Part shown: in pieces, positions 24,414 through 42,272 of the stretch
How the letters are laid out: each line of letters opens with the position of its first letter
Position numbering within the stretch: position 1 is the first letter of the stretch
NCBI GenBank assembly: GCA_024641655.1
Contig: JAHECR010000010.1
Location: 1-64,000 of the forward strand
Direction: 5' to 3'
Source of the DNA: Acidimicrobiaceae bacterium
GTDB lineage: Bacteria > Actinomycetota > Acidimicrobiia > Acidimicrobiales > UBA8592
DNA: 64,000 nt
Notes under the pieces: model-generated
Seen by the model: only the letters and a program-made list of their open reading frames with translations
What the model was told of the DNA's origin: nothing
The model's database searches: none
Translations under genes and position numbers: made by a program

Positions 24414-25208
24414 TCACCCAGCGTCGGCCCGGAAGCGGCGAAACCCCGGCGTCCAGCTCGTGAGACCGTCGTGGGTGATCACATAGCCTTCGTAGGGGGG
24501 GCGGTCTGCCAACCACCCGAGGCCGTCGGCGCCCATGACGAAAACGGTGGTGGCGTACGCGTCGGCCAGGGTGAGATCGGGGCCGACGATGGTGACGCTC
24601 GCCAGCGCCGTCGTCGGTTGCCCGTTGCGAGGGTCGATGATGTGAGCGCCTCGCTCGTAGGTGGCCGATGTCGCCACGCCCAAGGGGCCGGTGACCTCGA
24701 GCGTCGTGGCGAGGAGATCGGCTTCGTCAGGGTGGCGGATGCCGATGCGCCAGGGTTGACCCGCCTCGGCCCGGCCCCGCACGGCGATGTCACCACCGGC
24801 GTTGATCGTGAAGTTCGCGGCGCCGTGGGTCTCGAGCACACCGGCGGCAAGCTCGATCGACCACCCCTTCACCAGGCCCGAGGGGTCCAGCGTGGTCCCG
24901 TTGGGCGCAGGCACGGCGAACACGTCGAACACGCCGTCGGAGTCCACACGTACCCGCTCGCAGAGTCGCAGGACGTCGCGGATCTCCTCGGATACCTCGT
25001 CGAAACCGATCTCGCCGCGACCGAGCTGCGATATCGGGCTGTTCTCCATATAGGTGCTGAAGGTGCGGTCGACATGGTGAAGCCACTCGACGACGTCGAC
25101 GATCGCTTCAGGGGCGATGTCGTCGCGCACATCGATGCTCACCGCCATGCCCATGACGGCCTCGACGTGATGAAGGCCCGGCCCCGAGGGCGCCGACGGC
25201 GTGTTCAC
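24414..25208 (-). CDS. apbE: FAD:protein FMN transferase
   Basis: ApbE/Ftp cleaves FAD and attaches the FMN part to a Thr of exported redox proteins, in a Mg2+-dependent reaction. The 264-residue protein has the family motifs: HHVDRTFSTYMENSPISQLN-like segment (near residue 43), DPSGLVKGW (near 105), INAGGD (near 131) and a C-terminal AYATTVFVMG segment. No lipobox is seen, so this copy is probably cytoplasmic or coupled to its partner. Its GTG start overlaps the stop of the b-type membrane protein gene by GTGA. The probable substrate is the FMN-binding protein at 23103. Confidence 0.92.
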   Translation of the reverse strand: MNTPSAPSGPGLHHVEAVMGMAVSIDVRDDIAPEAIVDVVEWLHHVDRTFSTYMENSPISQLGRGEIGFDEVSEEIRDVLRLCERVRVDSDGVFDVFAVPAPNGTTLDPSGLVKGWSIELAAGVLETHGAANFTINAGGDIAVRGRAEAGQPWRIGIRHPDEADLLATTLEVTGPLGVATSATYERGAHIIDPRNGQPTTALASVTIVGPDLTLADAYATTVFVMGADGLGWLADRPPYEGYVITHDGLTSWTPGFRRFRADAG

Positions 25209-25750
25209 GACTGGAGGCGGCGGTCGCGAATGCCAATCAGCCTGATCGACAGGACATACACGCTGAGTCCGACGGAAGCCGCGATCGCGAGTTGGGCCGG
25301 CTTGCTGCGGGCATCGGAGCCCAGCTGATAGGTGTGCACCAGCATTGCGGCGACTCCGGCCACCGACGTGAGGTGAAGCGCGCGCCAGAGCGGGCGGCTG
25401 AAACGTCGCTTGGGCCAACTCGTGAAGACGGCGATGGCGAAGGTGTAGGTCGCGATCACGCCGAAGGCCAGAGCCAGAGCGTCGCTGCGGGCAGTGCCGG
25501 GAACGACCGCATCGACGATCCGTACCCCCGACGAGGTGTTGGCCAGCGTTGCGACGATGTGGATCGCGGTGAAGGCGAGCGCGGCCCCGCCGAGCCAGTT
25601 GTGAAGGTCGAGCCACCAGGCCGGGCGGAGGCGCTGACCGGTCTCACGCGCCGAGAACAGGGTGCCCCACACCACCGCAGCAACCGCCAGCACGCCGGCG
25701 ACGATGCCGGTCGATCGGCTGAGGTACCACATCAGATCCTGCATGTTCAT
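25205..25750 (-). CDS. Ferric-reductase-like b-type haem membrane protein
   Basis: The 181-residue protein has about five transmembrane helices with histidines placed as haem ligands (LHNWLGG, AIHIVA, ALHLTS, LVHTYQL). This matches the ferric reductase-like transmembrane domain (FRE/MsrQ-like). It probably passes electrons across the membrane to the exported FMN-binding protein. It starts at the ATG at 25750 and is co-translated with apbE. Confidence 0.85.
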   Translation of the reverse strand: MNMQDLMWYLSRSTGIVAGVLAVAAVVWGTLFSARETGQRLRPAWWLDLHNWLGGAALAFTAIHIVATLANTSSGVRIVDAVVPGTARSDALALAFGVIATYTFAIAVFTSWPKRRFSRPLWRALHLTSVAGVAAMLVHTYQLGSDARSKPAQLAIAASVGLSVYVLSIRLIGIRDRRLQS

Positions 25751-25934: not shown

Positions 25935-26903
25935 TCAGCCGGCGAGCTTGGCCGGAGCGGGGAGGAACCAGGTCGATGCCATGCGGTCGTGGACATCGGC
26001 GATGCCCAGCTGGAGCTCGTCGACGAAGTCGTGCAGCTCGCCTTCCACCAACGCCGTGATGTTCACATCGGAGAGGTCCTTTTGCACCTTCGCACACGCC
26101 GACATCGCCTGATCGTGCCCGGGGATTTCGAGCAGCCACCGTGATGCCTCGAGCAGGCAGCACTCGACGGTTCGGGGACATTTCGTGTCGTGGAGGAGAA
26201 ACGCCACGGTCGCCTCGGCCGACGTCGGCACACCGCTGCGGCGGAACGCCTGCAGCGCGCTGACCGAGCGCAGCGCCGCGAACCAGCAGAGGTCGAGGTA
26301 GGGCTCGAGGGGCCCTTGGACGCGCCGGGTGAGGATCTCGCGCTGGACATCGAGGACCCGGGTGGTGAGGTCGGCTCGCTCCAATTGCCGTCCGACGGTG
26401 AAGAAGCAGTAGGCGTCGTCGTGGGTCATCGTGTCGAACAGGATCGACGACAGCGTCTGGCACCCGCGGATGACTGTCGTGAGCCAGGTGGTGCGGCCGC
26501 GTCGATCGACCGCGGACTCGGCGGTCGCCTCGATGTCGTGGTACAGCTCGGTGAGCACCTCGACCGCTTCGACGGGCATGACCGACCGGGTGACCCGCAG
26601 GTTGTGGTAGGCCGCCGCGATCGACGCCCGGATCGAGCTCGGGTTGTCGCGATCGGCAACGAGCAGGCGAACCACGGCCTCCTCGTCGTAACCAAGCGCG
26701 GCCGGCATTGCATCCTCGTCGATCCCGAGCACGGCCAACAGCGGCCGCCAACCGACCGAGGCCTCCCTGGGGAGATCGACGACGAGGTCGGCGTGGGTCT
26801 TGATGAGTCGGGCAGTGCCTTCGGCGCGCTCGAGGTAGCGGCCGGCCCAGTACGCGCTCTCGGCGACCCGGGACAGCAGGAGGGGAGACGGACTCTGGTA
26901 CAT
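25935..26903 (-). CDS. Alpha-E domain protein (COG2307)
   Basis: The 322-residue, almost all-helical protein begins with the alpha-E hallmark LLSRVAESAYWAGRYLERAE (residues about 7-26) and keeps the FFTVGRQLERADLTTRVLD segment. Its biochemical role is unknown; it is nearly always encoded with a circularly permuted ATP-grasp and a transglutaminase. The ATG at 26903 follows a GAGGAG site and lies 10 bp after the ATP-grasp stop, so the two form an operon. It is the stand-alone counterpart of the fused domain in 31855-34425. Confidence 0.88.
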   Translation of the reverse strand: MYQSPSPLLLSRVAESAYWAGRYLERAEGTARLIKTHADLVVDLPREASVGWRPLLAVLGIDEDAMPAALGYDEEAVVRLLVADRDNPSSIRASIAAAYHNLRVTRSVMPVEAVEVLTELYHDIEATAESAVDRRGRTTWLTTVIRGCQTLSSILFDTMTHDDAYCFFTVGRQLERADLTTRVLDVQREILTRRVQGPLEPYLDLCWFAALRSVSALQAFRRSGVPTSAEATVAFLLHDTKCPRTVECCLLEASRWLLEIPGHDQAMSACAKVQKDLSDVNITALVEGELHDFVDELQLGIADVHDRMASTWFLPAPAKLAG

Positions 26904-26913
26904 GGTGCTCCTC

Positions 26914-28401
26914 TCAGGCGCGTCTGGTCTGCGCCTGGACGACGGGGGCCGCGAGCGGCGGAGTGACGAGCGAGTCGACGATCCACGTGTCCTTGCTGCC
27001 ACCGCCCTGCGAGCTGTTGACGATCAGCGATCCCTCACGGAGTGCGACCCTGGTGAGGCCGCCCACGCTGACGTAGGGGTCGGCTCCCGACAAGATGAAC
27101 GGGCGCAGGTCGATGTGCCGTGGGGCGATCGTCTCGCCGCAGATGGTTGGCGCGGTCGACAGCTGCAGGATCGGCTGGGCGATCCAGTTGCGCGGGTCGG
27201 CCTCGATCTCCGCCCGCACTGCCGCCAGTTCTGCCTCCGTGGCCTTCGAGCCGATCAGGACACCCTTGCCCCCCGCCTCGTTCGCAGGCTTGCAGACCAG
27301 CGAGTCGAGGTTGGCGAGCACGTGGGCTCGGTGCTCGGGATCGAGACAGCGCCAGGTCGGGACGTTCGCAATGGCCGGCTTCTCGCCGAGGTAGTACTCG
27401 ATGATCTCCGGGACGTAGGAATACACGACCTTGTCGTCGGCGACGCCGGCCCCGGGAGCGTTCGCGATGGCGACGTTGCCTGCCCGCCATGCCTGGATGA
27501 GTCCGGCAACGCCGAGCACCGAGCTCGGTTCGAAGATGTCGGGATCGAGCCAGAGATCGTCGACGCGTCGATAGATCACGTCGACCCGGACGAGGCCGCT
27601 GACCGTGCGCATGTAGACGACGTCGTCGTCGACCACCAGATCGGAACCCTCGACGAGATGCGCGCCGATCCGCGTCGAAAGGAGCACGTGCTCGTAGTAC
27701 GCGGAGTTGTGGATGCCCGGGGTGAGAACGCAAACGATCGGCTCGACGTCATCGCGCGGTGACAACGATCGCAGCATCGCTCCGAGGCGCTCGATGTAGC
27801 CGTCCACGGGCAACACGTCGAGGTCGCGGAACAGGTCGGAGAACACCCGCTTGGAAACCTGGCGGTTCTCGAGCATGTACGACACCCCCGACGGGATTCG
27901 GAGATTGTCCTCGAGCACGAACATCTGACCGGTGCCGTCGCGCACGAGATCGCTGCCACTGATGTGGGCCCAGACGCCGTCCGGGGGCGAGACGCCACGA
28001 CACGCGGCCCGGTAGTTCGCCGAGTTCTCGAGAAGCTCACCCGGAAACACGCCGTCGGCGATGATCTCGCGGGCGTGGTAGAGGTCGTCGATGAACAGGT
28101 TGAGCGCCCGCAGCCGCTGGATCAGGCCGCGAGTGATGGCCGACCACTCCTCGCGCGCAATGATCCGAGGGATGACGTCGACCGGCCAGGCGCGGTCGAT
28201 GTTGCCGTCCTCGGTGTAGAGGGTGAAGGTCACGCCCATCGAGCGAATTGCGGCCTCAGCAGCTTCCTGGCGGCGGAACAGCTCGGTCCCGAGCGCCTCG
28301 AGTCGCGCGTGGACTTCGACGCAGCCGCGACGCGGATGCCCGTGCGCGTCGAGCATCTCGTCGAACGTCTTGGTTGCGTCATACCCGGGCGGCCAGGTCA
28401 T
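26914..28401 (-). CDS. Circularly permuted type 2 ATP-grasp protein (COG2308)
   Basis: This 495-residue protein belongs to the circularly permuted ATP-grasp family, predicted to form peptide or amide bonds with ATP. It retains a glycine-rich nucleotide loop KPANEAGGKGVLIG (near residue 375) and the following acidic segment. The N-terminus (ATKTFDEMLDAHGHPR) is typical of the family. It is transcribed leftwards with the alpha-E gene and is divergent from the DUF2126-transglutaminase gene 154 bp away. The substrate is unknown. Confidence 0.88.
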   Translation of the reverse strand: MTWPPGYDATKTFDEMLDAHGHPRRGCVEVHARLEALGTELFRRQEAAEAAIRSMGVTFTLYTEDGNIDRAWPVDVIPRIIAREEWSAITRGLIQRLRALNLFIDDLYHAREIIADGVFPGELLENSANYRAACRGVSPPDGVWAHISGSDLVRDGTGQMFVLEDNLRIPSGVSYMLENRQVSKRVFSDLFRDLDVLPVDGYIERLGAMLRSLSPRDDVEPIVCVLTPGIHNSAYYEHVLLSTRIGAHLVEGSDLVVDDDVVYMRTVSGLVRVDVIYRRVDDLWLDPDIFEPSSVLGVAGLIQAWRAGNVAIANAPGAGVADDKVVYSYVPEIIEYYLGEKPAIANVPTWRCLDPEHRAHVLANLDSLVCKPANEAGGKGVLIGSKATEAELAAVRAEIEADPRNWIAQPILQLSTAPTICGETIAPRHIDLRPFILSGADPYVSVGGLTRVALREGSLIVNSSQGGGSKDTWIVDSLVTPPLAAPVVQAQTRRA

Positions 28402-28555: not shown

Positions 28556-31500
28556 ATGGGCATCCACGTCGGCATCGAGCACCGCACGAGTTACCGGTTC
28601 GATCGACCGGTGACGATTCATCCCCACGTGCTGCGCCTTCGGCCGGCGCCACATTGCCGGACGCCCATTCTCGCATACAGCCTCAGCGTCACTCCAGGAA
28701 ACCATTTCGTCAACTGGCAGCAGGACCCCTTCGGCAACCATCTCGCCCGGTTGGTGTTCCCGGAGCCGGCGACCCACCTCGACATCACCGTGGATCTCGT
28801 TGCCGATCTCACGGTCGTCAACCCCTTCGATTTCTTCGTCGAGGAGTACGCCGAGCGCTATCCGTTCCGCTACGAGACCCAGCTCGAGGCCGACCTGGAG
28901 CCGTACCTCCGGGTCGCCACCGAAGGCGGCCCCCTACTCGACGCCTGGATGGCCGAGGTGCGACGCCCGATCGAACCGATGCCCATCGTCGACTTCCTCG
29001 TCGGCCTCAATCAGCGGCTTCTCGCCGACGTCGCCTATGCGACCCGCATGGAACCGGGGGTCCAGGAACCCGAGGACACGCTGCGCCTGGCCATCGGGTC
29101 CTGCCGCGACACGGGCTGGCTCCTCGTCGAGATCCTCCGTCGGCTCGGGCTCGCGGCGCGGTTCGTCTCGGGGTATCTGGTCCAGCTCACCGCCGACCAG
29201 CCGGCCCTCGACGGACCCGATGGACCGGCGGCCGACTTCACCGATCTCCATGCCTGGGCCGAGGTCTACATTCCCGGCGCGGGGTGGATCGGGCTCGATC
29301 CCACCTCGGGCCTCTTCGCCGGCGAGGGACACATCCCGCTGGCCTGCACGCCCCATCCGGTGTCGGCGGCTGCGGTCACGGGTTCGACGAGCCCCGCCGA
29401 GGTCGCACTCGAGTTCGCGAACGTCGTGCACCGGGTGCGGGAGGACCCTCGGGTCACGCTCCCGTACACCCCCGAGCAGTGGGCCCGCATCGATCGTGTC
29501 GGTGCGGCCGTGGACGAGCGACTCGAGAGCGGCGACGTGCGTCTCACGATGGGCGGTGAGCCCACCTTCGTCTCCATCGACGAGATGGACGAGCCCGAAT
29601 GGAACACCGCCGCCGACGGCACCCACAAGCGGGCCCTCGCCCATGACCTGACCCACCGCCTGCACGACCGCTTCGCCCCCGGGGGCCTGCTGCAGTTCGG
29701 GCAGGGCAAGTGGTACCCCGGTGAAGCGCTGCCACGGTGGCAGATCGGCATCAACTGGCGCAATGACGGCCTGCCACTGTGGCGCCGCCCCGATCTGCTC
29801 GTCGATCCGGAGGCCGAGCCCGTGGCCGAGCCGGCCTCCGAGGACGCCCGGCGTTTCGCCGAGGCACTCGCGGCGCGCCTGCAGGTCGACACCGAGCTGG
29901 TCCTTGCCGCGTATGAGGATCCCGTCGACGCCGTGTGGCGCGAGGCGCGCATGCCCGAGGGCTCGCCGCCGGCGCTCGACGCGGGAAGCGACGACGTGGA
30001 CACGCTCGGCCACGCCGATGCCCGGCGACGCCTGCTGGCCCGACTCGAGGGCGATTCCGGAGCGCCGGTGGGTTGGGTCCTCCCCCTCCACCCCGCCCCG
30101 GCGGGCGATGGGTGGCAGACCACACGCTGGCACCTTCGCCGGGATGCGTTGTTCCTGATCCCCGGTGACTCGCCGATCGGGCTCCGTCTTCCACTCGATG
30201 CCCTGAGCTGGTCACCGTTGCCCACCTCCATCGCCCGCTCGACGTTCGAGCCCCGCGACGCGCTCCCCGCACCCGGCACCCTGCCCGCAGCTGCACGCGT
30301 CGTGGAGCGCCACGAGACACCGCCGACGGCCCTTGCCGTCGAGGTGCGCAAGGGCCACCTCCGGGTCTTCCTCCCCCCGCTCGAACATGCCGAGCACGCG
30401 ATCGAGCTCGTCGGCCTGGTCGAGGCCGTCGCTGCCGAGCTCGAACAGCCCGTCGTCGTCGAGGGGTACCCGCTGCCGCGCGACCCGCGCCTGTCGGTGC
30501 TGATGGTGACGCCTGACCCCGGCGTCATCGAGGTCAACATCCAGCCGACGCGCTCGTGGTCCGAGCTTCGCGAGGTCATCGCCACCTTGTATGCCGAGGC
30601 TCGGCTCGCGCGCCTGGGCACCGAGAAGTTCGCGCTCGACGGCACCCACACGGGCACCGGCGGGGGCAACCACGTGACGCTCGGGGGCGCGAGCGCTGCC
30701 GACAGCCCGCTCCTGCGCCGGCCCGATCTGCTCCAGAGCATGGTGACGTTCTGGCAGCACCATCCCTCGCTGTCCTACCTCTTCTCGGGGCTGTTCATCG
30801 GGCCCACGAGCCAGGCGCCTCGCGTCGACGAAGGTCGGGTCGATACGGTCTACGAGCTCGAGATCGCCTTCGCAGAGCTGGAGCGTCACGGCTCCGAGGT
30901 GTCGCCCTGGACCGTCGACCGTCTGCTGCGCCACCTGCTCGTCGACCTCACCGGGAACACCCACCGGTCCGAGTTCTGCATCGACAAGCTCTTCAGTCCC
31001 GACTCCGAGCGTGGCCGACTCGGCCTGCTCGAACTGCGCGCCTTCGAGATGCCCCCGCATCCGCAGATGGCGCTGGTGCAGTCGCTCCTCGTGCGGGCGC
31101 TCGTCGCTCGATTCTGGGAGGAGCCCTATCGGGGGCGTCTCGTGCGATGGGGCAGCGACCTCTACGACCGGTACCTGCTGCCGTGGTACGTGAGAGCCGA
31201 CATCCACGAGGTGGTCGACGACCTCGTCCGTCACGACATCGACTTCGATCCGGCATGGCTCGAGCCGTTCCTTGCGTTCCGGTTCCCCCTGGTCGGCGAG
31301 GTCGAGCTCGACGACCTGCGTCTCGAACTGCGGCGTGCCATCGAGCCGTGGCACGTGCTCGGTGAGGAGGTGGCGCAAGGCGCGACGGCACGTTACGTGG
31401 ACTCGTCGGTCGAGCGCCTCCAGGTGCTCGTCGAGGGCTTCAACGAAGCGCGCCACATCGTGACCTGCAACGGCATCCCGGTGCCGCTCCAACCCACTAG

Positions 31501-31858
31501 CACGCCGGGGACCGGTGTCGCAGGTGTGCGGTTCAAGGCGTGGGCCCCGTGGTCGGCTCTGCATCCGACCATCGCGGTCCACGGCCCGCTCGTGTTCGAC
31601 CTCATCGACCGGTGGAGTGGGCGGTCACTCGGAGGATGCACGTACCGCGTGTCGCACCCCGGGGGCCGAGCCTACGACACGTTCCCGGTCAACGCGCCAG
31701 AGGCCGAGGCTCGACGGGCGGCGCGGTTCTTCGCCCATGGCCACACTCCCGGGAGGGTCGATGTCGCGGCGCTCGATGAGCTGGCGTCGTCCACGCCGCG
31801 CGAGTACCGGCGTACGCTCGATCTCCGACGGCACCCCTCCCGGACGGAACCTGCGTGA
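28556..31858 (+). CDS. Transglutaminase-like protease fused to DUF2126
   Basis: The 1100-residue protein has a bacterial transglutaminase N-terminal region (residues about 1-90), a transglutaminase-like core with the triad Cys183 (GSCRDTGW), His232 (LHAWAEV) and Asp248 (LDPTSG), and a long DUF2126 domain (about 290-1100) with phrases such as MGGEPTFVSIDEMD and GTHTGTGGGNH. A glutamine-synthetase-like or amidoligase-related fold has been suggested for DUF2126. The protein is predicted to be cytoplasmic. The GTG of the fused ATP-grasp gene overlaps its stop. Confidence 0.9.
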   Translation: MGIHVGIEHRTSYRFDRPVTIHPHVLRLRPAPHCRTPILAYSLSVTPGNHFVNWQQDPFGNHLARLVFPEPATHLDITVDLVADLTVVNPFDFFVEEYAERYPFRYETQLEADLEPYLRVATEGGPLLDAWMAEVRRPIEPMPIVDFLVGLNQRLLADVAYATRMEPGVQEPEDTLRLAIGSCRDTGWLLVEILRRLGLAARFVSGYLVQLTADQPALDGPDGPAADFTDLHAWAEVYIPGAGWIGLDPTSGLFAGEGHIPLACTPHPVSAAAVTGSTSPAEVALEFANVVHRVREDPRVTLPYTPEQWARIDRVGAAVDERLESGDVRLTMGGEPTFVSIDEMDEPEWNTAADGTHKRALAHDLTHRLHDRFAPGGLLQFGQGKWYPGEALPRWQIGINWRNDGLPLWRRPDLLVDPEAEPVAEPASEDARRFAEALAARLQVDTELVLAAYEDPVDAVWREARMPEGSPPALDAGSDDVDTLGHADARRRLLARLEGDSGAPVGWVLPLHPAPAGDGWQTTRWHLRRDALFLIPGDSPIGLRLPLDALSWSPLPTSIARSTFEPRDALPAPGTLPAAARVVERHETPPTALAVEVRKGHLRVFLPPLEHAEHAIELVGLVEAVAAELEQPVVVEGYPLPRDPRLSVLMVTPDPGVIEVNIQPTRSWSELREVIATLYAEARLARLGTEKFALDGTHTGTGGGNHVTLGGASAADSPLLRRPDLLQSMVTFWQHHPSLSYLFSGLFIGPTSQAPRVDEGRVDTVYELEIAFAELERHGSEVSPWTVDRLLRHLLVDLTGNTHRSEFCIDKLFSPDSERGRLGLLELRAFEMPPHPQMALVQSLLVRALVARFWEEPYRGRLVRWGSDLYDRYLLPWYVRADIHEVVDDLVRHDIDFDPAWLEPFLAFRFPLVGEVELDDLRLELRRAIEPWHVLGEEVAQGATARYVDSSVERLQVLVEGFNEARHIVTCNGIPVPLQPTSTPGTGVAGVRFKAWAPWSALHPTIAVHGPLVFDLIDRWSGRSLGGCTYRVSHPGGRAYDTFPVNAPEAEARRAARFFAHGHTPGRVDVAALDELASSTPREYRRTLDLRRHPSRTEPA

Positions 31859-34425
31859 CCTTGAGCGACACAACCGGCGACCTCCTGTCGGCCTACGTGG
31901 CCCGTGACTCCGGTGGCGTCGACGAGCTCGTCGACCACTTCGGCAGGGTCCGGCCCCACTGGGTGGAGCTGGCGCACGCCTACGACCGGCTCGGCGCCTA
32001 CGAGTTGCGACGGCGCAACGACGAGATCCGCCTGCTGCTGGAGCAGGACGGGGTCACCTACAACGTCTCGACCGGTGACCGCCGACGGCACCGACCATGG
32101 ACCCTCGACGCCGTCCCGCTCGTGGTTCCCAGCGAGGAGTGGCGGGCGCTGGAGCGCGGGGTGGTGCAGCGTGCCGAGCTGTCCGATCTCATCCTGCGGG
32201 ATGTCTACGGCGAGCGTCGGTTGCTGCGGAGCGGGCTGATCCCGCCGGCGATGATCTTCGCCGACCGGGGTTTCACGCGCGCCTGCGACGGCATCGTGCT
32301 GCCCGGAAGCCGCCAACTCGTGGTGGGGGCCCTCGACCTGGCACGGTCCGCCGATCGCGGCTGGGTGGCGCTCAGCCAGCGAACGCAGGCACCGTCGGGC
32401 GCCGCGTACGCGCTGGAGAACCGGCGGGTGCTGTCGCGGGTGTTCCCGGCGATCTTCCAACAGGCCGGGGTCCAGCGCCTCGCTCCGTTCGTGCGGGCCC
32501 TCCGCAGTGCGCTCCGTTCTGCGGCACCGTCGGGGGTCGACGACCCGTCGATCGTCATCTTGTCACCAGGCCCGATGTCGGAAACGGCCTTCGAGCATGC
32601 TTCCATCGCCGCCCAATTGGGCTATCCCCTCGTGCAGGGCACCGACCTCGAGGTCCGTGAGGGTCGGGTCTGGCTGCGCGCCGTCGACCGGCTCGTTCCT
32701 GTCGACCTGATCTTGCGGCGCGTCGACGACTGGTTCAGTGACCCGCTCGAGTTGCGGCCCGACTCCACACTCGGCGTCCCCGGCCTGGTCGATGCCTGCC
32801 GGGCGGGAACCGTCAGCGTCGTGAACACGCTCGGATCCGGTGTGCTCGAAAACGCCGCGCTGCCGAGCATCATGCTTCGGCTCTCGCAGGAGCTCCTCGG
32901 CGAGGACCTGATCATCCCGTCGGCGCAGACCTGGTGGTGCGGTGATCCCGCAGGCCGGTCGCATGTCCTGTCCCATCTCGGCGAGATCATCGTCCGGCCA
33001 CTGTCCCGGATGAGCATGGACCACTCCCGCGACACTCGGCTGTCGAGTTCGGCAGAGCTGGCCACCTTGCGTAGCCGGATCGAGGCCCGACCAGAACTGT
33101 GGGTCGGGCAGGAACGCATCGCCGTCGCCACGGCGCCGATGCTCGGAGCGACCGGTATCGAGGCGCGCCCGACGGTGCTGCGCACCTTCGCGGTTGCGAC
33201 GTCAGACGGGTACCTCGCCATGGCCGGGGGCCTCGCCCGGACCGCCGGCGAGCATCCCACCGCCCCGATCACCAACCGCGCCGGAGCCCTGTCCAAGGAC
33301 GTGTGGATCGTCGGGGCCGAGCCCGAACGTGACGCGGACTTCTGGCTCACGCCGCCAGAGCTGGTCACCGGGATCGCCGGCGGGGCGCCCTCGGCGCGTG
33401 CCGCGGAGAACCTGTTCTGGTTGGGCCGGTACGCCGAACGCGCCGAATCCACCGTGCGTCTGCTGCGCACGGTCTACGGGCGCCTCGACGAATTCCGCAA
33501 TTCGCCGACCGGCCCGGGGCAGGCCTCGCTCAGTGCGCTGCTCGAGTCGCTCACCCGCATCACTGGCACCTACCCGGGGTTCGTGGGCGACGACGCCGCA
33601 TCGCTGCACGACCGACCACTCGATGAGCTGCTGGGCCTGGTCGTCGACGAGGACCGACCGGGCACGGTCGCGCACGCGATCGGGTCGATGTTCGATGCGA
33701 TAGACGTGCTGCGCGATCAGCTGTCGGTCGACACGTGGCTCGTCGTCGGCTCGCTCCAACGCGAGCTCGATCGTCTCGACGCAGCCCATGGCAACAGCGA
33801 GGAAGCCGTCACCAATGTGCTCACCGAACTCTTGCAGGGTCTGCTTGCGTTGGCGGGGTTGGCGAACGAGTCGATGGTCCGCGACCAGGCCTGGTGCTTC
33901 ATGGAGGCGGGTCGGCGCATCGAGCGTGCCATTCATGTCGTCGGCCTCGTCTCGGGGCCGCTCGCTGTCGAGCGCGGGGCGGCCGCAGAGAGCCTGCTGC
34001 TCGAGTCGGTGCTCATGGCCGGCGAGAGCATCATCACGTACCGGCGCCGGTACCGGTCACGAGCGCGCGTGTCGACCGTGCTCGACCTGTTGGTCTTGGA
34101 CCCCGGCAACCCCAGATCGTTGCGGTTCCAGGTCGACGCGCTGCAAGCGAGCCTCGCGGCTCTCCAGGTCGATCGGCCCCACCAGAACGTCTCCTCGGCG
34201 ACAGCAGTCGTGGCCGAGCTGGCCGACCTGGTTCACCACTTGGATTCGGCCGAGCTCGCGAGCGCTGACCCGAAGGGCAGGCGAGTCGCTCTCGATCACT
34301 TCGCGTCGACCGCGTCCGATCGCCTGCGCGGCGCGTCCGACGCCCTGCGTGACGAGTTCTTCACCCGGTTGCTGCCCCAGCACAGCATCGTGACGCCGGT
34401 CCAGCCGCCGAGGCCGCACTGGTGA
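31855..34425 (+). CDS. Fused circularly permuted ATP-grasp / alpha-E protein
   Basis: The 856-residue protein joins a COG2308-type ATP-grasp (about residues 1-500) to an alpha-E domain (about 510-830, marked by AENLFWLGRYAERAESTVRL). Where the stand-alone paralogue has KPANEAGGKG, this one reads RPLSRMSMDH, so the glycine-rich loop and lysine are lost. ATP binding may be altered or absent. It overlaps the upstream and downstream transglutaminase genes by 4 bp each, so the three proteins should be made together. Confidence 0.88.
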   Translation: MTLSDTTGDLLSAYVARDSGGVDELVDHFGRVRPHWVELAHAYDRLGAYELRRRNDEIRLLLEQDGVTYNVSTGDRRRHRPWTLDAVPLVVPSEEWRALERGVVQRAELSDLILRDVYGERRLLRSGLIPPAMIFADRGFTRACDGIVLPGSRQLVVGALDLARSADRGWVALSQRTQAPSGAAYALENRRVLSRVFPAIFQQAGVQRLAPFVRALRSALRSAAPSGVDDPSIVILSPGPMSETAFEHASIAAQLGYPLVQGTDLEVREGRVWLRAVDRLVPVDLILRRVDDWFSDPLELRPDSTLGVPGLVDACRAGTVSVVNTLGSGVLENAALPSIMLRLSQELLGEDLIIPSAQTWWCGDPAGRSHVLSHLGEIIVRPLSRMSMDHSRDTRLSSSAELATLRSRIEARPELWVGQERIAVATAPMLGATGIEARPTVLRTFAVATSDGYLAMAGGLARTAGEHPTAPITNRAGALSKDVWIVGAEPERDADFWLTPPELVTGIAGGAPSARAAENLFWLGRYAERAESTVRLLRTVYGRLDEFRNSPTGPGQASLSALLESLTRITGTYPGFVGDDAASLHDRPLDELLGLVVDEDRPGTVAHAIGSMFDAIDVLRDQLSVDTWLVVGSLQRELDRLDAAHGNSEEAVTNVLTELLQGLLALAGLANESMVRDQAWCFMEAGRRIERAIHVVGLVSGPLAVERGAAAESLLLESVLMAGESIITYRRRYRSRARVSTVLDLLVLDPGNPRSLRFQVDALQASLAALQVDRPHQNVSSATAVVAELADLVHHLDSAELASADPKGRRVALDHFASTASDRLRGASDALRDEFFTRLLPQHSIVTPVQPPRPHW

Positions 34426-35291
34426 TCTACGAAGTCGCCCACAGCACGCGCTACGAGTACGACGCGCCGGTCACGGTGAGCTATGCCGACGTTCACCAGC
34501 TGCCCGACGACGCCGACGGCCAGATCTGTCTGAGCCGCTCCATCGAGTCGAGCCCCGCTGCGGAGCATTACCGTGAGCGCCGGGACTACTTCGGGAACCT
34601 CGTCGCGCAGCTCGAGATCCGCGAGGCCCATACGACGCTGGTGGTCACCAGCGCCAGTGTGGTGGACACCTCCGGGAGGCCCACGACGTTCCCCGCCGAG
34701 GCGCTCCTCCCCTGGGAGGATCACCTCGTGGTACGGCGCCCCGGCGACGACCTCATGGCGGTCGAGCTCAGCCTCGACTCACCGCTGGTGGCGAGGTCGC
34801 CGGAGCTCGCCACCTATGCCCATCGGTCGTTCGCTCCCGGTATTTCGTTGGCCACCGCGCTCGGCGACCTGAACAGCCGGATCCACGGCGACTTCGTCTT
34901 CGATGCCGAAGCCACCGACATCGAGACCCCGCTCGACGAGGTCCTACGGACACGCCGGGGCGTCTGCCAGGACTTCGCTCACGTGCTGATCGGCTGTCTG
35001 CGATCGACCGGTCTCGCTGCCGGCTATGTGAGCGGATACCTGGAGACCGACCCCCCGCCCGGGCAGGAGCGTTTGACGGGAGCCGACCGCACGCATGCCT
35101 GGGTGGGCGTCCATCTCGGCGGAACGAGGTTCGTCGGTATCGACCCGACCAACGACCAGGTTGCCGGACCGCGGTACATCACCGCAGCGCGCGGTCGTGA
35201 CTACGGCGACGTCCCGCCCCTGAAGGGCGTGATCTTCACCGACGCCGAGGAGAGCACCCTCACCGTGGCCGTGGACGTTTCCCCTCGTTGA
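34422..35291 (+). CDS. Transglutaminase-like cysteine protease (COG1305)
   Basis: The 289-residue protein has the N-terminal bacterial transglutaminase region (residues about 1-85, HSTRYEYDAPVTVSYADVHQ) and a core with Cys182 (RGVCQDFAH), His225 (THAWVGV) and Asp241 (GIDPTND). These form an intact papain-like triad, so it could cleave or form peptide/isopeptide bonds. No signal peptide is visible. It ends the rightward three-gene operon. Confidence 0.9.
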   Translation: MIYEVAHSTRYEYDAPVTVSYADVHQLPDDADGQICLSRSIESSPAAEHYRERRDYFGNLVAQLEIREAHTTLVVTSASVVDTSGRPTTFPAEALLPWEDHLVVRRPGDDLMAVELSLDSPLVARSPELATYAHRSFAPGISLATALGDLNSRIHGDFVFDAEATDIETPLDEVLRTRRGVCQDFAHVLIGCLRSTGLAAGYVSGYLETDPPPGQERLTGADRTHAWVGVHLGGTRFVGIDPTNDQVAGPRYITAARGRDYGDVPPLKGVIFTDAEESTLTVAVDVSPR

Positions 35292-35382: not shown

Positions 35383-36303
35383 TCAGTTGAGCGAGGCGCC
35401 CATGGCTTCGACGAGATGCGGGCCCCGCGGCGCCAGCACTTCCTCGGTGCGGGGGTCGACGCCCCAATTCTCGGTGAAGAGATCGAGGTCGGGGCGCAGC
35501 GTCTCGAGCACCGCAGCGGCCTGGTCGGCGGTCGGGGTCGTCCATCGCTCGATCTGGTCGGCCAGTTCCCTGATGGTTGCACCGACGCGAGGGTGGTCGA
35601 TGGCGAGCGCCTCCACCATGTCCGGCAGGGTGCCGTACCGGTGCAGGTAGCGCTCCCAGTGGATGCCGTTGATCCCTGCATCGGCGGTGAACGACTGGAG
35701 AATCGAGGCCTTGTGCATCGTTGCGGAGTTCTGCGGGCCGGGGTCGCGGAACTCGAAGAACGGGTTGACGCCGACGAAGTCACAGACGCGGCGAGCCGTG
35801 CCTCGGATGTCGGAGCAGATCTCGGCGTAGGTGAGCACCAGGATTCTGTCGCGCCCGAAGACGGCCTCGTATGGCATCAGCTGCAGGCGGTAGTTCGAGA
35901 TGAAGACCGCCTGCGGGTTCACGCCGTGTTCGATCGAATGGCCGAACCAACCCCGAGCGATTGCGTGCACGTAGTGGGACTTGATGCGGTCGACCGGGTT
36001 GCGGACGACATAGACGAATCGGAAGTCGCCGTCGACATTGCAGGCATTGAAAGCCGCCGTGGGGTTCATCGGCAGCTTGGTGTAGTTGGTCGAAGCCTCG
36101 AGCAGGACCTGGTTGGGACGGTCGGCGGCGTCCCACAGCGTCCGGTACTGATCGAGGCCGGCGCTGTACTGCGCGGGGTCGTTGAGGAAGTTCGGTTCCT
36201 TGTCCCGGGGCCGGGCGATGTCGGGGTGCTGGCACAGCGCGGCATAGAGCGCGGTGGTGCCGCACTTCATCGCGCCGAGGATGACGGCGTAGCGATCGGA
36301 CAT
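35383..36303 (-). CDS. PAPS-dependent sulfotransferase
   Basis: The 306-residue enzyme has the 5'-phosphosulfate loop GAMKCGTTALY (near residue 10) and the 3'-phosphate motif RNPVDRIKSHY (near residue 101). It would transfer sulfate from PAPS to a hydroxyl or amine of a glycan, lipid or small molecule. The ATG at 36303 has an AAGGGA site; a longer start at 36363 is possible. It converges on the transglutaminase operon, with no proof of a shared pathway. Confidence 0.88.
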   Translation of the reverse strand: MSDRYAVILGAMKCGTTALYAALCQHPDIARPRDKEPNFLNDPAQYSAGLDQYRTLWDAADRPNQVLLEASTNYTKLPMNPTAAFNACNVDGDFRFVYVVRNPVDRIKSHYVHAIARGWFGHSIEHGVNPQAVFISNYRLQLMPYEAVFGRDRILVLTYAEICSDIRGTARRVCDFVGVNPFFEFRDPGPQNSATMHKASILQSFTADAGINGIHWERYLHRYGTLPDMVEALAIDHPRVGATIRELADQIERWTTPTADQAAAVLETLRPDLDLFTENWGVDPRTEEVLAPRGPHLVEAMGASLN

Positions 36304-36407
36304 GTCCCTTGCATCGGCAGCACCGGGCCCGACATGAGTCGTTCGGCCCATACGCGTCGTCATTGGTGCAAGGCACCTCGTCGACGAGGTCGTGGCGGGT
36401 CGATGAC

Positions 36408-37070
36408 TCAGCGGGTGTCGAGATCGATGGTCATGGTGACGACGCCGGCGTTGGTGGTGGTCGTCACCAGATGGTTGCCGGCGATCGACTGGGGTGCTTC
36501 GAAGGATGCCGCGAGGAGGGCGCTGATCTGCTCCGGGGACAGCGAGGCGTCGGGGACGAGCGCCCAGGTGACCGCTTCGCCGACCGCCGACAGCGTGGCG
36601 TAGAGAAGGCCGGGGGGCTCCTCGGCGGTCAACAGGCTCGGGTCGGCGACGATGCGGATGCGACGCAGTTCACCAGTGCCGGGAACCTCTGCGGTCACCG
36701 CCATGAGCGCAGGTGTTCCCGATGGCGCGGCCCGACGCAGCAACAGGTCGCCGTCGGGGCCGCTTCGCCTGGCGCCTGCGAACATCCCGGCGAACGCGTC
36801 GCCAAGGGCGTTGGGGTGTGCCGCGACTCGTTCGTCGAAGGCGGTGACGAACGTCGCGAACGTATACGACGCGCCCGGCACGATCTCCGCGCCACCGCCC
36901 GACGGCGTCGGCGCATCGGCCACCGTTGCGCTGTTGCGAGGGTCCCGCAGGGCGGCAGCGCCCCCACACGCGAGCGAGAGCGCGACGATCGCGCCCGTGA
37001 CCGATGCCGCCTTTCGATGGCGCGGGGTGGTGGCAGTGCCGTGACGCGGTTGGTGGCGACGGGCGATCAG
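36408..37070 (-). CDS. Exported hypothetical protein, start uncertain (possible CTG)
   Basis: The frame encodes about 220 residues with a basic N-terminus, a hydrophobic stretch (VTGAIVALSLACGG) and a folded domain to 36408. It looks like an exported protein, possibly a lipoprotein with a poor lipobox. No ATG, GTG or TTG lies between the Lrp gene and the hydrophobic stretch; a CTG at 37070 overlaps the Lrp stop as CTGA and is the best candidate. I do not recognise the domain. Confidence 0.6.
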   Translation of the reverse strand: MIARRHQPRHGTATTPRHRKAASVTGAIVALSLACGGAAALRDPRNSATVADAPTPSGGGAEIVPGASYTFATFVTAFDERVAAHPNALGDAFAGMFAGARRSGPDGDLLLRRAAPSGTPALMAVTAEVPGTGELRRIRIVADPSLLTAEEPPGLLYATLSAVGEAVTWALVPDASLSPEQISALLAASFEAPQSIAGNHLVTTTTNAGVVTMTIDLDTR

Positions 37071-37555
37071 CGCGTCCCCCAGCTGTATGTCTGCTTCACG
37101 AGTCGCAGGTAGGTCATGATCTCGACGTCGGTGACCCCGTCGATGGACCGGATGGAGTCGTTGACGATCGTCAACAGGTCCTCGTTGTCGGCGGCGACGA
37201 CCTCGGCAAGGACGTCGTAGCGTCCTGCGCACAAGATGACGTACTCGGCGATCTCGTACCCCGCGATCGTCTCGGCGACAGTGCGGGCGTCGCCACTGAC
37301 GTTCATGCCGATCATCGCCTGGACGCTGAACCCCAGCATCGTGGGGTCGGTGACCGCCACGACCTGCATCACCCCACTGTCGATGAGGCGCTGGACCCGC
37401 TGCCGCGTCGCGGCCTGCGAGAGCCCGACACGCGGCCCGAGCTGGGCATAGCTCACTCGGCCGTCGATCTGCAGCTCCCGCACGATGACCTTGTCGATGT
37501 CGTCGAGGGGGGCCTGGCGCCGACGGGGCCCCTGCTGCTCACGCCGCTGTGCCAT
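37067..37555 (-). CDS. Lrp/AsnC-family regulator
   Basis: The 162-residue protein has an N-terminal helix-turn-helix (residues about 20-60, GRVSYAQLGPRVGLSQAATR) and a C-terminal RAM/ligand domain (about 75-155). Such regulators usually respond to amino acids and bind near their own promoter. It is followed with overlap by the exported-protein gene. The polyamine transporter operon lies just upstream on the same strand, so it could be a target. Confidence 0.9.
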   Translation of the reverse strand: MAQRREQQGPRRRQAPLDDIDKVIVRELQIDGRVSYAQLGPRVGLSQAATRQRVQRLIDSGVMQVVAVTDPTMLGFSVQAMIGMNVSGDARTVAETIAGYEIAEYVILCAGRYDVLAEVVAADNEDLLTIVNDSIRSIDGVTDVEIMTYLRLVKQTYSWGTR

Positions 37556-37638
37556 CGTGTCCCGTTCGCTCGGCGACCAACATCGCCGGTCATGGTAGGC
37601 CGAACGTGCCCACGGGCCCGACCGCTCTGCGGTTCGGT

Positions 37639-37788
37639 GTCGACGGGTTCGACGCGGTGCCTTCTGGCGTCGACGGGTTCGACGCGGTGCCTTCTGGCGT
37701 CGACGGGTTCGACGCGGTGCCTTCTGGCGTCGACGGGTTCGACGCGGTGCCTACTGGAGTCGGCCGGTGCGACTTCGTGCCCACTGGA
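37639..37788. repeat. 30-bp tandem repeat, five units
   Basis: The unit GTCGACGGGTTCGACGCGGT + GCCTTCTGGC is repeated exactly three times (37639-37728), a fourth unit (37729-37758) differs at two bases and a fifth (37759-37788) is more diverged. The last two units overlap the 3' end of the potC-like gene at 37751. There are no spacers. Confidence 0.93.
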
Positions 37789-38599
37789 GCAGCGCGCCGG
37801 CGACGATCACGCCGATGGTGACGAGGAGCACGAGCGTCGCCAACACGTTGATCTGTGGCGGCGTGCCGTTGCGCGACCCCCCGAAGACCTGCAATGGGAA
37901 CGTGTTGCGAGACCCGGCCGTGAAGAACGTGATGATGAAGTCGTCCATCGAGAGTGCGAACGACAGAAGTCCTGCGGCGATGATGCCCGGGACGATGAGC
38001 GGGAAGGTCACGGTTGCGAAGGTGCGCATCGGGCCGGCGCCGAGGTCCATGGCGGCGTCCTCGAGGTTCCAGTCGAAGCCACGAAGGCGCGCCTTCACCG
38101 TGAGGGCGACGAAGCTGACCGAGAACATCACGTGCGCGATCCAGATGGTCGTGGCCCCGCGATCGAGCCCCCATCCGAGGAAGAGGTTCGCGAGCGATGC
38201 CCCGAGCACGATCTCGGGTGTCGTGAGCGGGAGCACCAGAAGCAGGTTGATCGTCGCGCTGCCTCGGAAGCGGTACCGCGCGAGAGCGAGGGCGATGAGG
38301 GCGCCGAAGAGCGTGGCGACGACGGTGGACAGCGCGGCGATCCGCAGGCTGTAGAACATCGCGTCACGGAGCTCTTCGATGGCGAAGGGATGACGCCAGT
38401 TGTCCAGCGTGAACTCCTGCCAGACGAGGTTGAAACGGCCCTTGGGCTTGTTGAAGCTGAACACCACGATGACGAAGACGGGTGCAAACAGGTAGACGAA
38501 CCCGAGCACGGCGTAGACCGTGAGCAGGATCCGGCCGACAGGCCGTCGTCGGCGGCGCCGCGCCCGTGTCGTCGGGAGCGCTTCGATCGCCGTGCTCAC
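37751..38599 (-). CDS. potC: Polyamine ABC transporter permease, PotC type
   Basis: The 282-residue membrane protein has about six transmembrane helices and the cytoplasmic EAA-type loop (EDAAMDLGAGPMRTFATVTFP, near residue 165, within the ATPase-docking region). It pairs with the upstream permease and PotA. The GTG start overlaps the preceding stop by GTGA. The 3' end runs into the 30-bp repeat array, suggesting the last codons came from repeat growth. Confidence 0.85.
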   Translation of the reverse strand: MSTAIEALPTTRARRRRRRPVGRILLTVYAVLGFVYLFAPVFVIVVFSFNKPKGRFNLVWQEFTLDNWRHPFAIEELRDAMFYSLRIAALSTVVATLFGALIALALARYRFRGSATINLLLVLPLTTPEIVLGASLANLFLGWGLDRGATTIWIAHVMFSVSFVALTVKARLRGFDWNLEDAAMDLGAGPMRTFATVTFPLIVPGIIAAGLLSFALSMDDFIITFFTAGSRNTFPLQVFGGSRNGTPPQINVLATLVLLVTIGVIVAGALLQWARSRTGRLQ

Positions 38600-39477
38600 A
38601 CTGTCAGCCCCTCGGTACCGAGGAACATCGCGTAGACCGTCACGGCGGCGGTGATGATGGCCATCAGCACGAAAGCGATCGCCGCGGCCACGGGGTAGTT
38701 GAGCTGCACCAGGAACTGGTCCTGGACGACGTTGCCGATGAGGGTGGTCCGGCTGTTTCCGCCGAGGATCGCGGAGTTCACGAAGTCACCGGCGGCGGGG
38801 ATGAAGGTCAACAACGTGCCCGCGAAGACGCCAGGCATCGACAAGGGCAGGACGACGCGGCGAAAGGCCTCCCTGGGACTCGCGTAGAGATCGCCGGCGG
38901 CATCGAGGAGGCGCAGGTCGATCTTCTCGAGACTCACGTACAGGGGGAGGATCATGAAGGGCAGGAAGTTGTAGGTGAGCCCGCCGATGACCGCGACGCT
39001 TGTATTGAGCAGCCGGTAGTCGCCCGGGATGAGGTGGAGCGCCTGGAGCGTCGAGAGTACGGGGCCGTCGTCGGCGAGGATGTTCTGCCACGCCAGGGTG
39101 CGGATCAGATAGGACGTGAAGAACGGCAGGATCACCAGACCCAGGAGCCGGTTGCGCCACGCCCCGCCGTAGCGCGCGATGAAGAACGCGAGTGGATAGC
39201 CGATCAGCAGGCACAGCACGGTGGCGGTCGCCGCGTAGACGAATGACCGCGTGAACTGGGTCCCGTACTCACGAAAGGCCGTGTCGAAGTTCGACCATTC
39301 CCACGAGAAGTCCATCTCCCCGGTGAACCGGTTCACGCGGCGCGACAGTGCCGTGCGGCCGAGGAAGAACATCGGTACCAGGAAGAACAGGATCAGCCAG
39401 ATGAGACCGGGGCTGAGCAACCCATAGGGGGCGAGGCCACCGGATTTCGGGCCGCGGTCGGTGGCCTCGCCTGCCAT
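38596..39477 (-). CDS. potB: Polyamine ABC transporter permease, PotB type
   Basis: The 293-residue protein has about six transmembrane helices, a large periplasmic loop (about residues 45-75, WSNFDTAFREYG) and the permease EAA loop (LDAAGDLYASPREAFRRVVLP, near residue 190). It starts with ATG 4 bp after the substrate-binding protein stop and overlaps potC. Confidence 0.85.
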   Translation of the reverse strand: MAGEATDRGPKSGGLAPYGLLSPGLIWLILFFLVPMFFLGRTALSRRVNRFTGEMDFSWEWSNFDTAFREYGTQFTRSFVYAATATVLCLLIGYPLAFFIARYGGAWRNRLLGLVILPFFTSYLIRTLAWQNILADDGPVLSTLQALHLIPGDYRLLNTSVAVIGGLTYNFLPFMILPLYVSLEKIDLRLLDAAGDLYASPREAFRRVVLPLSMPGVFAGTLLTFIPAAGDFVNSAILGGNSRTTLIGNVVQDQFLVQLNYPVAAAIAFVLMAIITAAVTVYAMFLGTEGLTV

Positions 39478-39481
39478 GGCC

Positions 39482-40696
39482 CTAGAGCCCCTGGATCTCC
39501 GCGAAGCGCTCGTCGAACAGCGCTTCCTGCTCGTCGCTGAGAGGACCCCAGCTCTGGGTGTTCGACAAGGTGGTCGGGAACATCAGGTCGCTGTCGGCGA
39601 GAGCAGCGATCGCGGGGTCGTCGGACTTGCGGAGCTCGTCGCGGACTCCCTGGACCGGCGGCATATACCCAACGTAGGCGGCGATCCTCGCTGCGTTCAC
39701 GGGGTCGTACACGTAGTTCATCCATTGGGCCGCTTCGTCGATGTGCCGGCAGTTGCGGGGGATGACCATGACGTCTGACCACAACGTCGAGCCGCTCTCG
39801 GGCACCACGAACCGCAGGTCGGGGTTGTCGAGTGCGAGCTGGGCCACGTCACCGGACCACGCCACGTTGGCCCAGAAGTTCCCATCGATCAGGTCGTCCT
39901 GGTAGTCGTTGCCGGTGAACGCTCGGATCTGCCCGTCGTTTGCGGCTTTCTCGATGATCTCGAATGCCTCGGCGGCGTCGTCGAAGGTCGCGTTGGCGAG
40001 GGTCTTGCCGGTGTACATCATCCAGAGCCCGACGGTGTCGCGCATCTCGGTGAGCATGCCGATGCGGCCCTTGAACGCCGGGTCCAGCAGGTCGTCCATG
40101 CTCTTGAGCTCACGGCCCGTCTTGGCGATGTTGTACGCGATCCCGGCGACGCCGCTCTGCCAAGGGAGGCTGTAGGCCCCTGTGGGGTCCCAGGAGGGCT
40201 TTTGGAGGTCGGGCACCAGATTCGCGGCGTTCGGGATCTGGTCGAGAGGCAGCGGTTCGACCCAGCACAGGTCGATCAGGCGCGCCGCCATCCAGAACGT
40301 GGGGGCGATGACGTCAGCGTCGATCACCTTGCCCGAGTTCAGCTCGGGCTGGATCTTGGCGAAATAGCTGATGTTGTCGTTGATCTCCTCGGTGTAGGTG
40401 AAGTCCAGCCCGCTCGAGGTCGCGAACAGGTCGACGGTCTCGTCGTCGATGTACAACGGCCAGTTGGCGAACTTCAGCTTGCCGTCGGCTGCTTGTGCGG
40501 CGCCGCTCGGTCCGCACGCTCCGGTTCCGGGCGTCGGCGTTGGCGTGGCCGCGGACGTGTCGCCATCGCCGCAGGCGGCGAGCAGGGCCGGTGCCAGAGC
40601 GAATCCGCCGAGCGCCAACCCGCTGCGACCGAGGAAACGTCGACGGGTCAGGCGGGGGTCGCCGGGACGGGGCAGGAACAGCGGGTTGTCGGCCAA
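39482..40696 (-). CDS. potD: Polyamine-type ABC transporter substrate-binding protein, Tat/lipoprotein
   Basis: The product of about 404 residues has a Tat signal (RRRFLG) with a lipobox (LLAAC, near residue 38). The mature part begins KFANWPLYIDDETVD, the PotD-like hallmark, and is a two-lobed binding protein. The TTG at 40696 is preferred because an AAGGAG site lies 8 bp upstream on the minus strand; longer ATG starts at 40741 and 40768 lack one. Spermidine/putrescine is the family substrate; the actual one is unproven. Confidence 0.85.
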   Translation of the reverse strand: MADNPLFLPRPGDPRLTRRRFLGRSGLALGGFALAPALLAACGDGDTSAATPTPTPGTGACGPSGAAQAADGKLKFANWPLYIDDETVDLFATSSGLDFTYTEEINDNISYFAKIQPELNSGKVIDADVIAPTFWMAARLIDLCWVEPLPLDQIPNAANLVPDLQKPSWDPTGAYSLPWQSGVAGIAYNIAKTGRELKSMDDLLDPAFKGRIGMLTEMRDTVGLWMMYTGKTLANATFDDAAEAFEIIEKAANDGQIRAFTGNDYQDDLIDGNFWANVAWSGDVAQLALDNPDLRFVVPESGSTLWSDVMVIPRNCRHIDEAAQWMNYVYDPVNAARIAAYVGYMPPVQGVRDELRKSDDPAIAALADSDLMFPTTLSNTQSWGPLSDEQEALFDERFAEIQGL

Positions 40697-40792
40697 CGGG
40701 GTGTCTCCTTCACGATGGATGGTGGTGGTGGTGGGGTCCATTGCCCTTGCCCGAGTGGGCGCGGCCAAGGAGTGGAAAGCGCTACGCGAGGC

Positions 40793-41926
40793 TCAGCTCG
40801 CGCCGGCGACCTGGCGTTGTCGCTCGACGTTGGTGGCCGCACTGCTGGTGGCGGACGGCAGGACGAGCCCGGCCGGGGCGCTCCAGCTCGCCCAGACGCT
40901 CTCACCGGCACGGGGCAGTTCGGCGTGGCCCTCGATGGCGAGGTTGGCGACGACTTCCGAGCCGTCGTCGGCCACGCCGGAGAGCCGCACGACGGGTCCC
41001 TGGAACACCAGGTCGGTGACGATGACCTGCACGGCCACGCGTCGGTCGGGACGGTCGGTCCCGACCGTGATGCGTTCGGGGCGAACCATCAGCGTCGCCG
41101 GCCCCGGGCGTGTGGTGTCGGGTGCCGATGCCTTCAGCGTCGTCCCGAGCACCGAGACCGTTGCCTGGCCCTCGACGACGGTCTCCACCCGGGTGGGCCA
41201 CAGGTTCGCCTGGCCGATGAAGCCGGCGACGAACTCGGTGGCGGGACGGTCGTAGATCTCGACGGGAGTGCCGATCTGGTCGACGCGACCCTCGTTCATC
41301 ACCGCGATGCGGTCGCTCATCGTGAGCGCCTCTTCTTGGTCGTGGGTGACGTAGATGAAGGTGATCCCGACCTCGCGCTGGATGCGCTTGAGTTCGAGTT
41401 GCATGACCTGGCGAAGTTTGAGATCGAGGGCACCGAGCGGCTCGTCGAGCAGCAACGCCGCGGGGTAGTTGACCAGGGCGCGCGCCAACGCGACGCGCTG
41501 CTGCTGGCCACCGGACAGCTGGCTCGGGCGGCGGCCGGCGAGGTCACCGAGTCGAACCACCTCGAGCATCTCGTTGCATCGGCGCGCGACCTCGGCCCTG
41601 TCGAGCCGAGCGCTCCGTGGGCCGAACGCAACGTTGTCCCACACGGTCATGTGCGGGAAGAGCGCGTAGTGCTGGAACACCGTGTTGACATTGCGTTTGT
41701 AGGGCGGCGTCGTGGAGACGTCGACCCCTTCGAGACGGATCTGGCCCGAGCTTGGTTGCTCGAAGCCGGCGATCATCCGAAGCGTGGTGGTCTTGCCGCA
41801 TCCCGACGGGCCGAGCATGGAGAAGAACTCACCCGGCGCGATCGAAAAATGGGCATCTTGCACCGCGGCGAACGCGCCGAAGTGCTTGGTCACGTGCTGG
41901 AGCTCGATCACCGGGGGAATGCTCAC
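40793..41926 (-). CDS. potA: Polyamine ABC transporter ATP-binding protein
   Basis: The 377-residue ATPase has Walker A (GPSGCGKTT, near residue 43), the ABC signature ([15 protein letters not shown], near 140), Walker B ([11 protein letters not shown], near 160) and a C-terminal TOBE domain (about 285-370) as in PotA/MalK-type importers. The GTG at 41926 gives the canonical N-terminus; the frame starts at 41959. It is the first gene of the transporter operon. Confidence 0.88.
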
Positions 41927-42272
41927 CAGGGGGACCCCTCTCGTTCGAGAAGAAATCATACGGCTACCAGCATTTCACTCGTATTCGTAGACCAAAACGA
42001 CGGAAACAAGTGCAAGATGAGGTGACTTCAGAAGAAATCACCGTGGTGTCGAAGTCGGAGTGGCGCGATCGTTCGCTCTCGGGCCGCCTGACGAACCCTG
42101 TGGGTGTCGGGCCGGCACGGCTCGGGGTCCCAGCGCACGGTCCGACCACTCTCCAGCACATCGATTCGCTGTCCGTTGCCCCGACGGCAGTGGTTCGCGC
42201 GCTACATTGCGCGCGACAACGACGAAACCGTTGGCACCGGGCCGAACGGCGAGCGTTTCTGGAGCGTCCAGC
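41927..42272. promoter_or_regulatory. Divergent control region of the polyamine genes
   Basis: This 346-bp region separates potA from the oxidoreductase gene. The 11-mer AGAAGAAATCA occurs at 41948-41958 and 42030-42040, in an AT-richer patch. These could be regulator-binding sites. The upstream part of the oxidoreductase frame (42060-42272) has no coding support. Confidence 0.5.

Follow-up and report, generated by a model that had tools for sequence, protein, structure and literature searches.

The circularly permuted ATP-grasp proteins of families PF14403 and PF04174 (COG2308) are said by Iyer et al. in 2009, as cited in the Pfam text for PF04174, to include both active and inactive versions, the inactive ATP-grasp domain reportedly often being fused N-terminally to an Alpha-E domain. 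The genes next to such inactive, Alpha-E-fused forms are said to encode a transglutaminase and a transglutaminase-fused COOH-NH2 ligase. Priority for the inactive Alpha-E-fused forms likely belongs to earlier work; in the literature passages covered here, none of them from Iyer et al., the fused copy was not described as inactive. What is added here is a residue-by-residue count, a set of intact fused controls, a deletion type, a selection test and a survey of co-occurrence. Among the described systems, the protein of known structure Mfla_0391 (3n6x) belongs to the same families, and eukaryotic glutathione synthetase and bacterial glutathionylspermidine synthetase share the permuted ATP-grasp fold. 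The closest described operon is that of Anbu, which combines genes for an ATP-grasp protein, an Alpha-E protein, a transglutaminase and Anbu itself. Published work on Yersinia bercovieri reports that the stand-alone-type ATP-grasp of this operon releases phosphate from ATP and that, in a pull-down with Anbu as bait, no specific binding was seen among proteins of a related operon (PMC6376114). A response to nitrogen limitation has been reported for related gene clusters of Burkholderia cenocepacia (PMC5491218) and Pseudomonas putida (PMC8050072).

The locus examined here lies in a stretch of 64,000 nucleotides (the window) and comprises five genes:

25935-26903, minus strand: P0003, a stand-alone Alpha-E protein (PF04168, 225.4 bits) adjoining P0002; its start was set at MYQSPS, the open frame as listed starting at 27002
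26914-28401, minus strand: P0002, a stand-alone circularly permuted ATP-grasp protein of 495 aa with all motifs intact (PF14403, 518.7 bits)
28556-31858, plus strand: P0004, a transglutaminase fused to DUF2126, a putative amidoligase (PF09899, PF08379, PF01841)
31855-34425, plus strand: P0001, a fused protein of 856 aa made of a degenerate circularly permuted ATP-grasp domain (about residues 23-487) and an Alpha-E domain (514-836)
34422-35291, plus strand: P0005, a transglutaminase (PF08379, PF01841)

P0001 scores 437.8 bits against PF14403 and 318.4 bits against PF04174, far above the curated cut-offs of 32 and 23.1, and 227.8 bits against PF04168; NCBIfam gave no family for five of five proteins. 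The start of P0001 overlaps the 3' end of P0004 by GTGA, and its own 3' end overlaps the start of P0005 by the same four bases, which suggests that translation of the three genes is coupled. With its C-terminal Alpha-E domain, its lost catalytic residues and its transglutaminase neighbours, P0001 agrees with the inactive Alpha-E-fused kind as it is reportedly defined. The locus shares the stand-alone ATP-grasp, Alpha-E and transglutaminase genes with the Anbu operon; no proteasome-type (PF00227) match occurs on the contig of the window (C59), the genome's two such matches being adjacent to each other on contig C78.

Other features surround these genes. On the minus strand, ApbE-family and ferric-reductase-like genes (24414-25750) adjoin the stand-alone Alpha-E gene P0003, and a sulfotransferase-domain gene (35383-36363; PF00685, PF13469) lies immediately downstream of the operon and convergent with it. 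An ABC transporter cluster (37067-41959, minus strand; two permeases, a solute-binding protein and an ATPase), for which a polyamine substrate is our guess, is found close to the ATP-grasp operon, with an AsnC-type regulator next to it. A link between this transporter and the operon was set aside: a search of the open frames from 142 loci gave no match to the solute-binding protein or the permeases, and a single, non-specific one to the ATPase (L040). At 37639-37773 a 30-base tandem repeat (4.5 copies with 95% matches) lies partly in the 3' end of an ABC permease gene (37751-38599, minus strand) and partly in the gap between this gene and the AsnC-type regulator, and an 18-base tandem repeat of 6.8 copies is found at the window start (1-122).

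P0001 and P0002 are 33% identical over 479 columns (BLASTP, E 5e-80), and the sites that distinguish them are as follows:

27262-27291, minus strand: KPANEAGGKG, the intact glycine-rich loop of P0002 (residues 371-380)
27430-27432, minus strand: K324 of P0002
27904-27912, minus strand: EDN of P0002
32374-32382, plus strand: SQR (S174-Q-R176) of P0001, replacing E-D-N, that is the Mg-ligand Glu and the Asn two residues on
32854-32856, plus strand: Ala334 of P0001, replacing the invariant K324 at the position of the first ATP-phosphate lysine
32995-33024, plus strand: RPLSRMSMDH of P0001 (residues 381-390), replacing the glycine-rich loop in pairwise, MAFFT and profile alignments

The first-pass annotation of this DNA had noticed the loop replacement, and rightly so: both strings are present where it placed them, and they face each other without a gap in the BLASTP alignment, in MAFFT and in a profile-profile comparison of 33 fused with 40 stand-alone proteins (hhalign, probability 100%). 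Four related fused proteins from other genomes (L033, L035, L037, L046) carry RPLSR-type loops at the same place, so that the difference is not due to a frameshift or a sequencing slip. At the sites where a catalytic ATP-grasp has its glycine-rich loop and its Mg-binding Glu with Asn two residues on (an Asn which we count among the Mg-ATP-holding parts), P0001 has RPLSRMSMDH and S174-Q-R176, and the two phosphate-lysine positions, K324 and K371, are occupied by Ala and Arg. These roles were assigned without superposition, from order and spacing along the chain and from the published description of glutathione synthetases of the same fold, with their acidic Mg ligands, pair of phosphate lysines, glycine-rich loop and alanine-rich loop (PMC2845819), because residue transfer by hhalign from the glutathionylspermidine synthetase family, with only two rows on one side of the comparison, gave a probability of 0.4%. 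Read in this way, the Mg ligands, both phosphate lysines, the G-loop and the A-loop follow one another along the stand-alone protein as they do in the glutathione synthetases (PMC2845819), whereas P0001 differs from glutathione and glutathionylspermidine synthetases by the loss of the Mg-ATP parts so paired. Likewise, 3n6x shows EDN and SGGYG in the alignment, unlike P0001, which has neither the glycine loop nor E-x-N nor the first phosphate lysine.

Despite this loss of motifs, P0001 is predicted to keep the fold. Its model (mean pLDDT 86.5) superimposes on 3n6x with a Z-score of 44.0 over 447 residues at 3.1 A (Foldseek E 3e-33, TMt 0.88), close to what the P0002 model gives (mean pLDDT 92.2, Z 46.5). 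Both models match glutathione and glutathionylspermidine synthetases more weakly than 3n6x (for P0001, Z 24.5 with 2hgs and 21.2 with 2io9). Fold matches of the Alpha-E domain, cytochrome bd among them, have Z-scores of about 10 and were set aside, this range being common for helical bundles.

The homologue survey yielded a final set of 184 loci with 191 open frames and 147 distinct homologues, duplicates with an identical 150-residue core having been removed and weakly matching open frames and stand-alone proteins with fewer than 400 aligned residues having been left out before counting. In a quick, midpoint-rooted tree of 115 rows, which does not rank the age of the groups, one set of fused proteins (F, 42 rows) lies on one side of a branch with a support of 96, and a second (D, 5 rows) has a support of 100. 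The two kinds are cleanly separated by their motifs. All 87 stand-alone proteins have E-x-N and K324, and 86 of them also GG.G, the sole exception (L181) having the first two glycines and not the third; in the fused F/D-type proteins, from homologues that span several phyla, E-x-N, K324 and the aligned GG.G are each found in 0 of 57, one F protein (L133) having a GGSG near the loop and none of the other residues. The reading of the fused copy as a pseudo-enzyme, which had been raised from this one protein, is thereby well supported at the level of sequence, and the loop difference proves to be conserved in the fused homologues. Fused homologues with KP..GGxG as the norm, the finding that would have spoken against it, were looked for and are absent from this clade. 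Three fused proteins do have all motifs intact (L068, L069 and L180), and they are of the stand-alone kind: L068 and L069 fall inside the stand-alone clade of the tree, and L180 was assigned by scores and motifs. The last (G736:C75:84000-96000) shares its contig with an F-type, degenerate Alpha-E fusion. Since these proteins are fused yet intact, fusion alone is ruled out as the cause of motif loss, which follows the clade instead.

The loss is also broader than the loop. The first-pass annotation had described the change as local, and here it must be corrected: when 43 fused were compared with 68 stand-alone-kind proteins, the stand-alone clade showed 103 columns with a conservation of 93% or more, of which the fused clade kept 42 and lost 31, and the lost columns are spread over several separate motifs. 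They include E164 and N166 of EDN, R168, D322-D323-K324, G377, G380, D431 and the S463-S464 loop, and those kept include D151, the PSG turn (P170, G172), R180, R278-R279, R433, K470, D471 and W473. Retention over the 57 F/D proteins is nearly complete for R433, D471 and R180 (57 each), G172 and R278 (56 each), and high for D151 (52) and K470 (51). F proteins could still bind nucleotide weakly, as 27 of the 50 full-length ones have K and 15 have R at the K371 position, and D151 is retained in 45 of these 50.

Such remnants raise the question of a re-purposed site, in which P0001 would bind another ligand or nucleotide and still be catalytic, in the manner of SidJ, a pseudokinase reported to catalyse polyglutamylation (PMC6858067). 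The F proteins have indeed gained conserved residues of their own (E243, T244, E332, W361, G363, M456), R176 and Q178 are common to most members, and K or R at the K371 position occurs in 42 of 50 full-length proteins. We nevertheless consider re-purposing unlikely, given that the Mg-ligand Glu, the first phosphate lysine and the aligned glycine loop have each been lost in 57 of 57 proteins, that the lid loop (SSQGGG) is changed in most, and that seven members lack the loop segment. In these seven of the 57 F/D proteins, the segment from the K324 position to D431 is shortened (fewer than 75 residues) and the three loop glycines have no corresponding residues. Six come from Acidimicrobiia-like genomes and one from Halomonas (L080), the latter falling in clade F and not D. 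Alignment of five of them with P0001 and P0002 showed that the stretch around residues 345-425 of P0001 is mostly gone; these five retain Alpha-E and the conserved arginines and are still followed by the transglutaminase. At least two genomes (G025, G255) have the stand-alone ATP-grasp and Alpha-E genes directly before the short-type gene. Another mode of nucleotide use, also put forward in the first-pass annotation, is thus a possible reading that the seven proteins without a loop segment make less likely.

Selection bears on two further explanations. In four close pairs of fused proteins, dN/dS of the grasp domain was 0.13, 0.09, 0.13 and 0.22, and in all four it was lower than that of the Alpha-E domain of the same pair; the ATP-grasp domain of the fused type is under purifying selection. 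A decaying gene, or a sequence or alignment error, to which nothing but the absence of motifs would point, can be dismissed with near certainty: the frame is open, the profile alignment is gap-free, all 57 homologues, which come from several phyla, share the loss, and dN/dS is low. A more serious alternative is that only the Alpha-E half matters and that the ATP-grasp half is a structural spacer which keeps its fold. Alpha-E is fused in all 57 F/D members (a consequence of how the set was selected), and its ER motif is near-invariant (E528 in 98% and R529 in 100% of 43 sequences). The stronger constraint on the grasp half in every pair and the 42 columns that it keeps argue against a mere spacer, which we regard as improbable.

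The neighbourhood of the fused gene is well conserved. Across 23 F loci with flanking sequence, a transglutaminase gene directly follows F in all 23 and a transglutaminase-DUF2126 gene precedes it in 14. A stand-alone grasp gene lies inside the same stretch in 10 and is absent from the stretch in 13. The catalytic residues of the P0005-type transglutaminase are preserved (C and H in 38 of 38 aligned sequences, D in 37 of 38), as are C, H and D in all 15 aligned P0004-type proteins; thus, among the parts tested, the loss is confined to the ATP-grasp half. One cluster (L072, NZ_CP116251.1 7969-26374), complete with degenerate and stand-alone ATP-grasp genes, Alpha-E and both transglutaminase genes, is plasmid-borne: it lies on an IncFII-type plasmid of Enterobacter, with IS26 and an arsenate reductase gene close by.

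At the scale of the genome, a stand-alone-type copy was present, among the matches listed, in 44 of the 44 F/D genomes found, these being different genome handles after removal of three repeats (some of those that were reached from named loci may duplicate others in the set). This copy was called by match range and identity, motifs having been read for the fetched copies only, and in one genome (G736) it is itself fused to Alpha-E. The pattern holds for 20 of 20 F/D genomes in Actinomycetota-side samples (among the matches listed), for 9 of 9 in the phylum to which G261 belongs, for 3 of 3 and 1 further in samples taken around G266 and G265, and for 14 of 14 genomes reached from named loci. 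Within a class sample of 296 genomes, 73 have a stand-alone copy and at least 13 are F/D genomes, of which 13 of 13 have both (hypergeometric P 5e-9, with relatedness ignored and the F/D count a lower bound). The converse fails, 60 genomes of this sample having a stand-alone copy and no F/D protein among the matches listed.

Taken together, we think it probable that P0001 is a conserved pseudo-ligase whose role would be to link an intact ligase to transglutaminases, either as a scaffold or by holding the substrate. In this scheme it descends from an ancient permuted ATP-grasp copy joined to Alpha-E, from which both E-x-N residues (Glu and Asn), the glycine-rich loop, the first phosphate lysine and a large part of the lid loop have disappeared; the fold remains, as do the PSG turn, Asp151 and several arginines, presumably part of the substrate side and not of the ATP side. 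P0001 would then turn over no ATP by the ATP-grasp route and may bridge the intact ligase (P0002 with P0003) and the transglutaminases P0004 and P0005, in a pathway that could be one of peptide or amide tagging, possibly tied to nitrogen supply; the product of the ATP-grasp/Alpha-E/transglutaminase system is not named in the literature covered. That the two copies form an active/inactive pair, as the first-pass annotation had proposed, is supported by their co-occurrence in 44 of 44 genomes and by the ATP turnover published for a stand-alone-type homologue (PMC6376114). Points that weigh against the proposed role are the 13 of 23 flanked F loci with no intact copy in the same stretch, the pull-down with Anbu that showed no specific binding (PMC6376114), and the K371, D151 and F-specific residues, which could allow weak nucleotide binding or a new active site. 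Only tentatively would we extend this to an obligate pair in several phyla, in which the inactive copy, Alpha-E-fused and in one lineage stripped of the ATP lid segment, never occurs without the active one and hands its product or acceptor to the transglutaminases. For this family, a sequence rule that splits the intact from the conserved non-catalytic copy lets experimenters choose one protein for ATP assays and the other as bait in partner searches, and is a reason for automatic annotation not to call all copies ligases.
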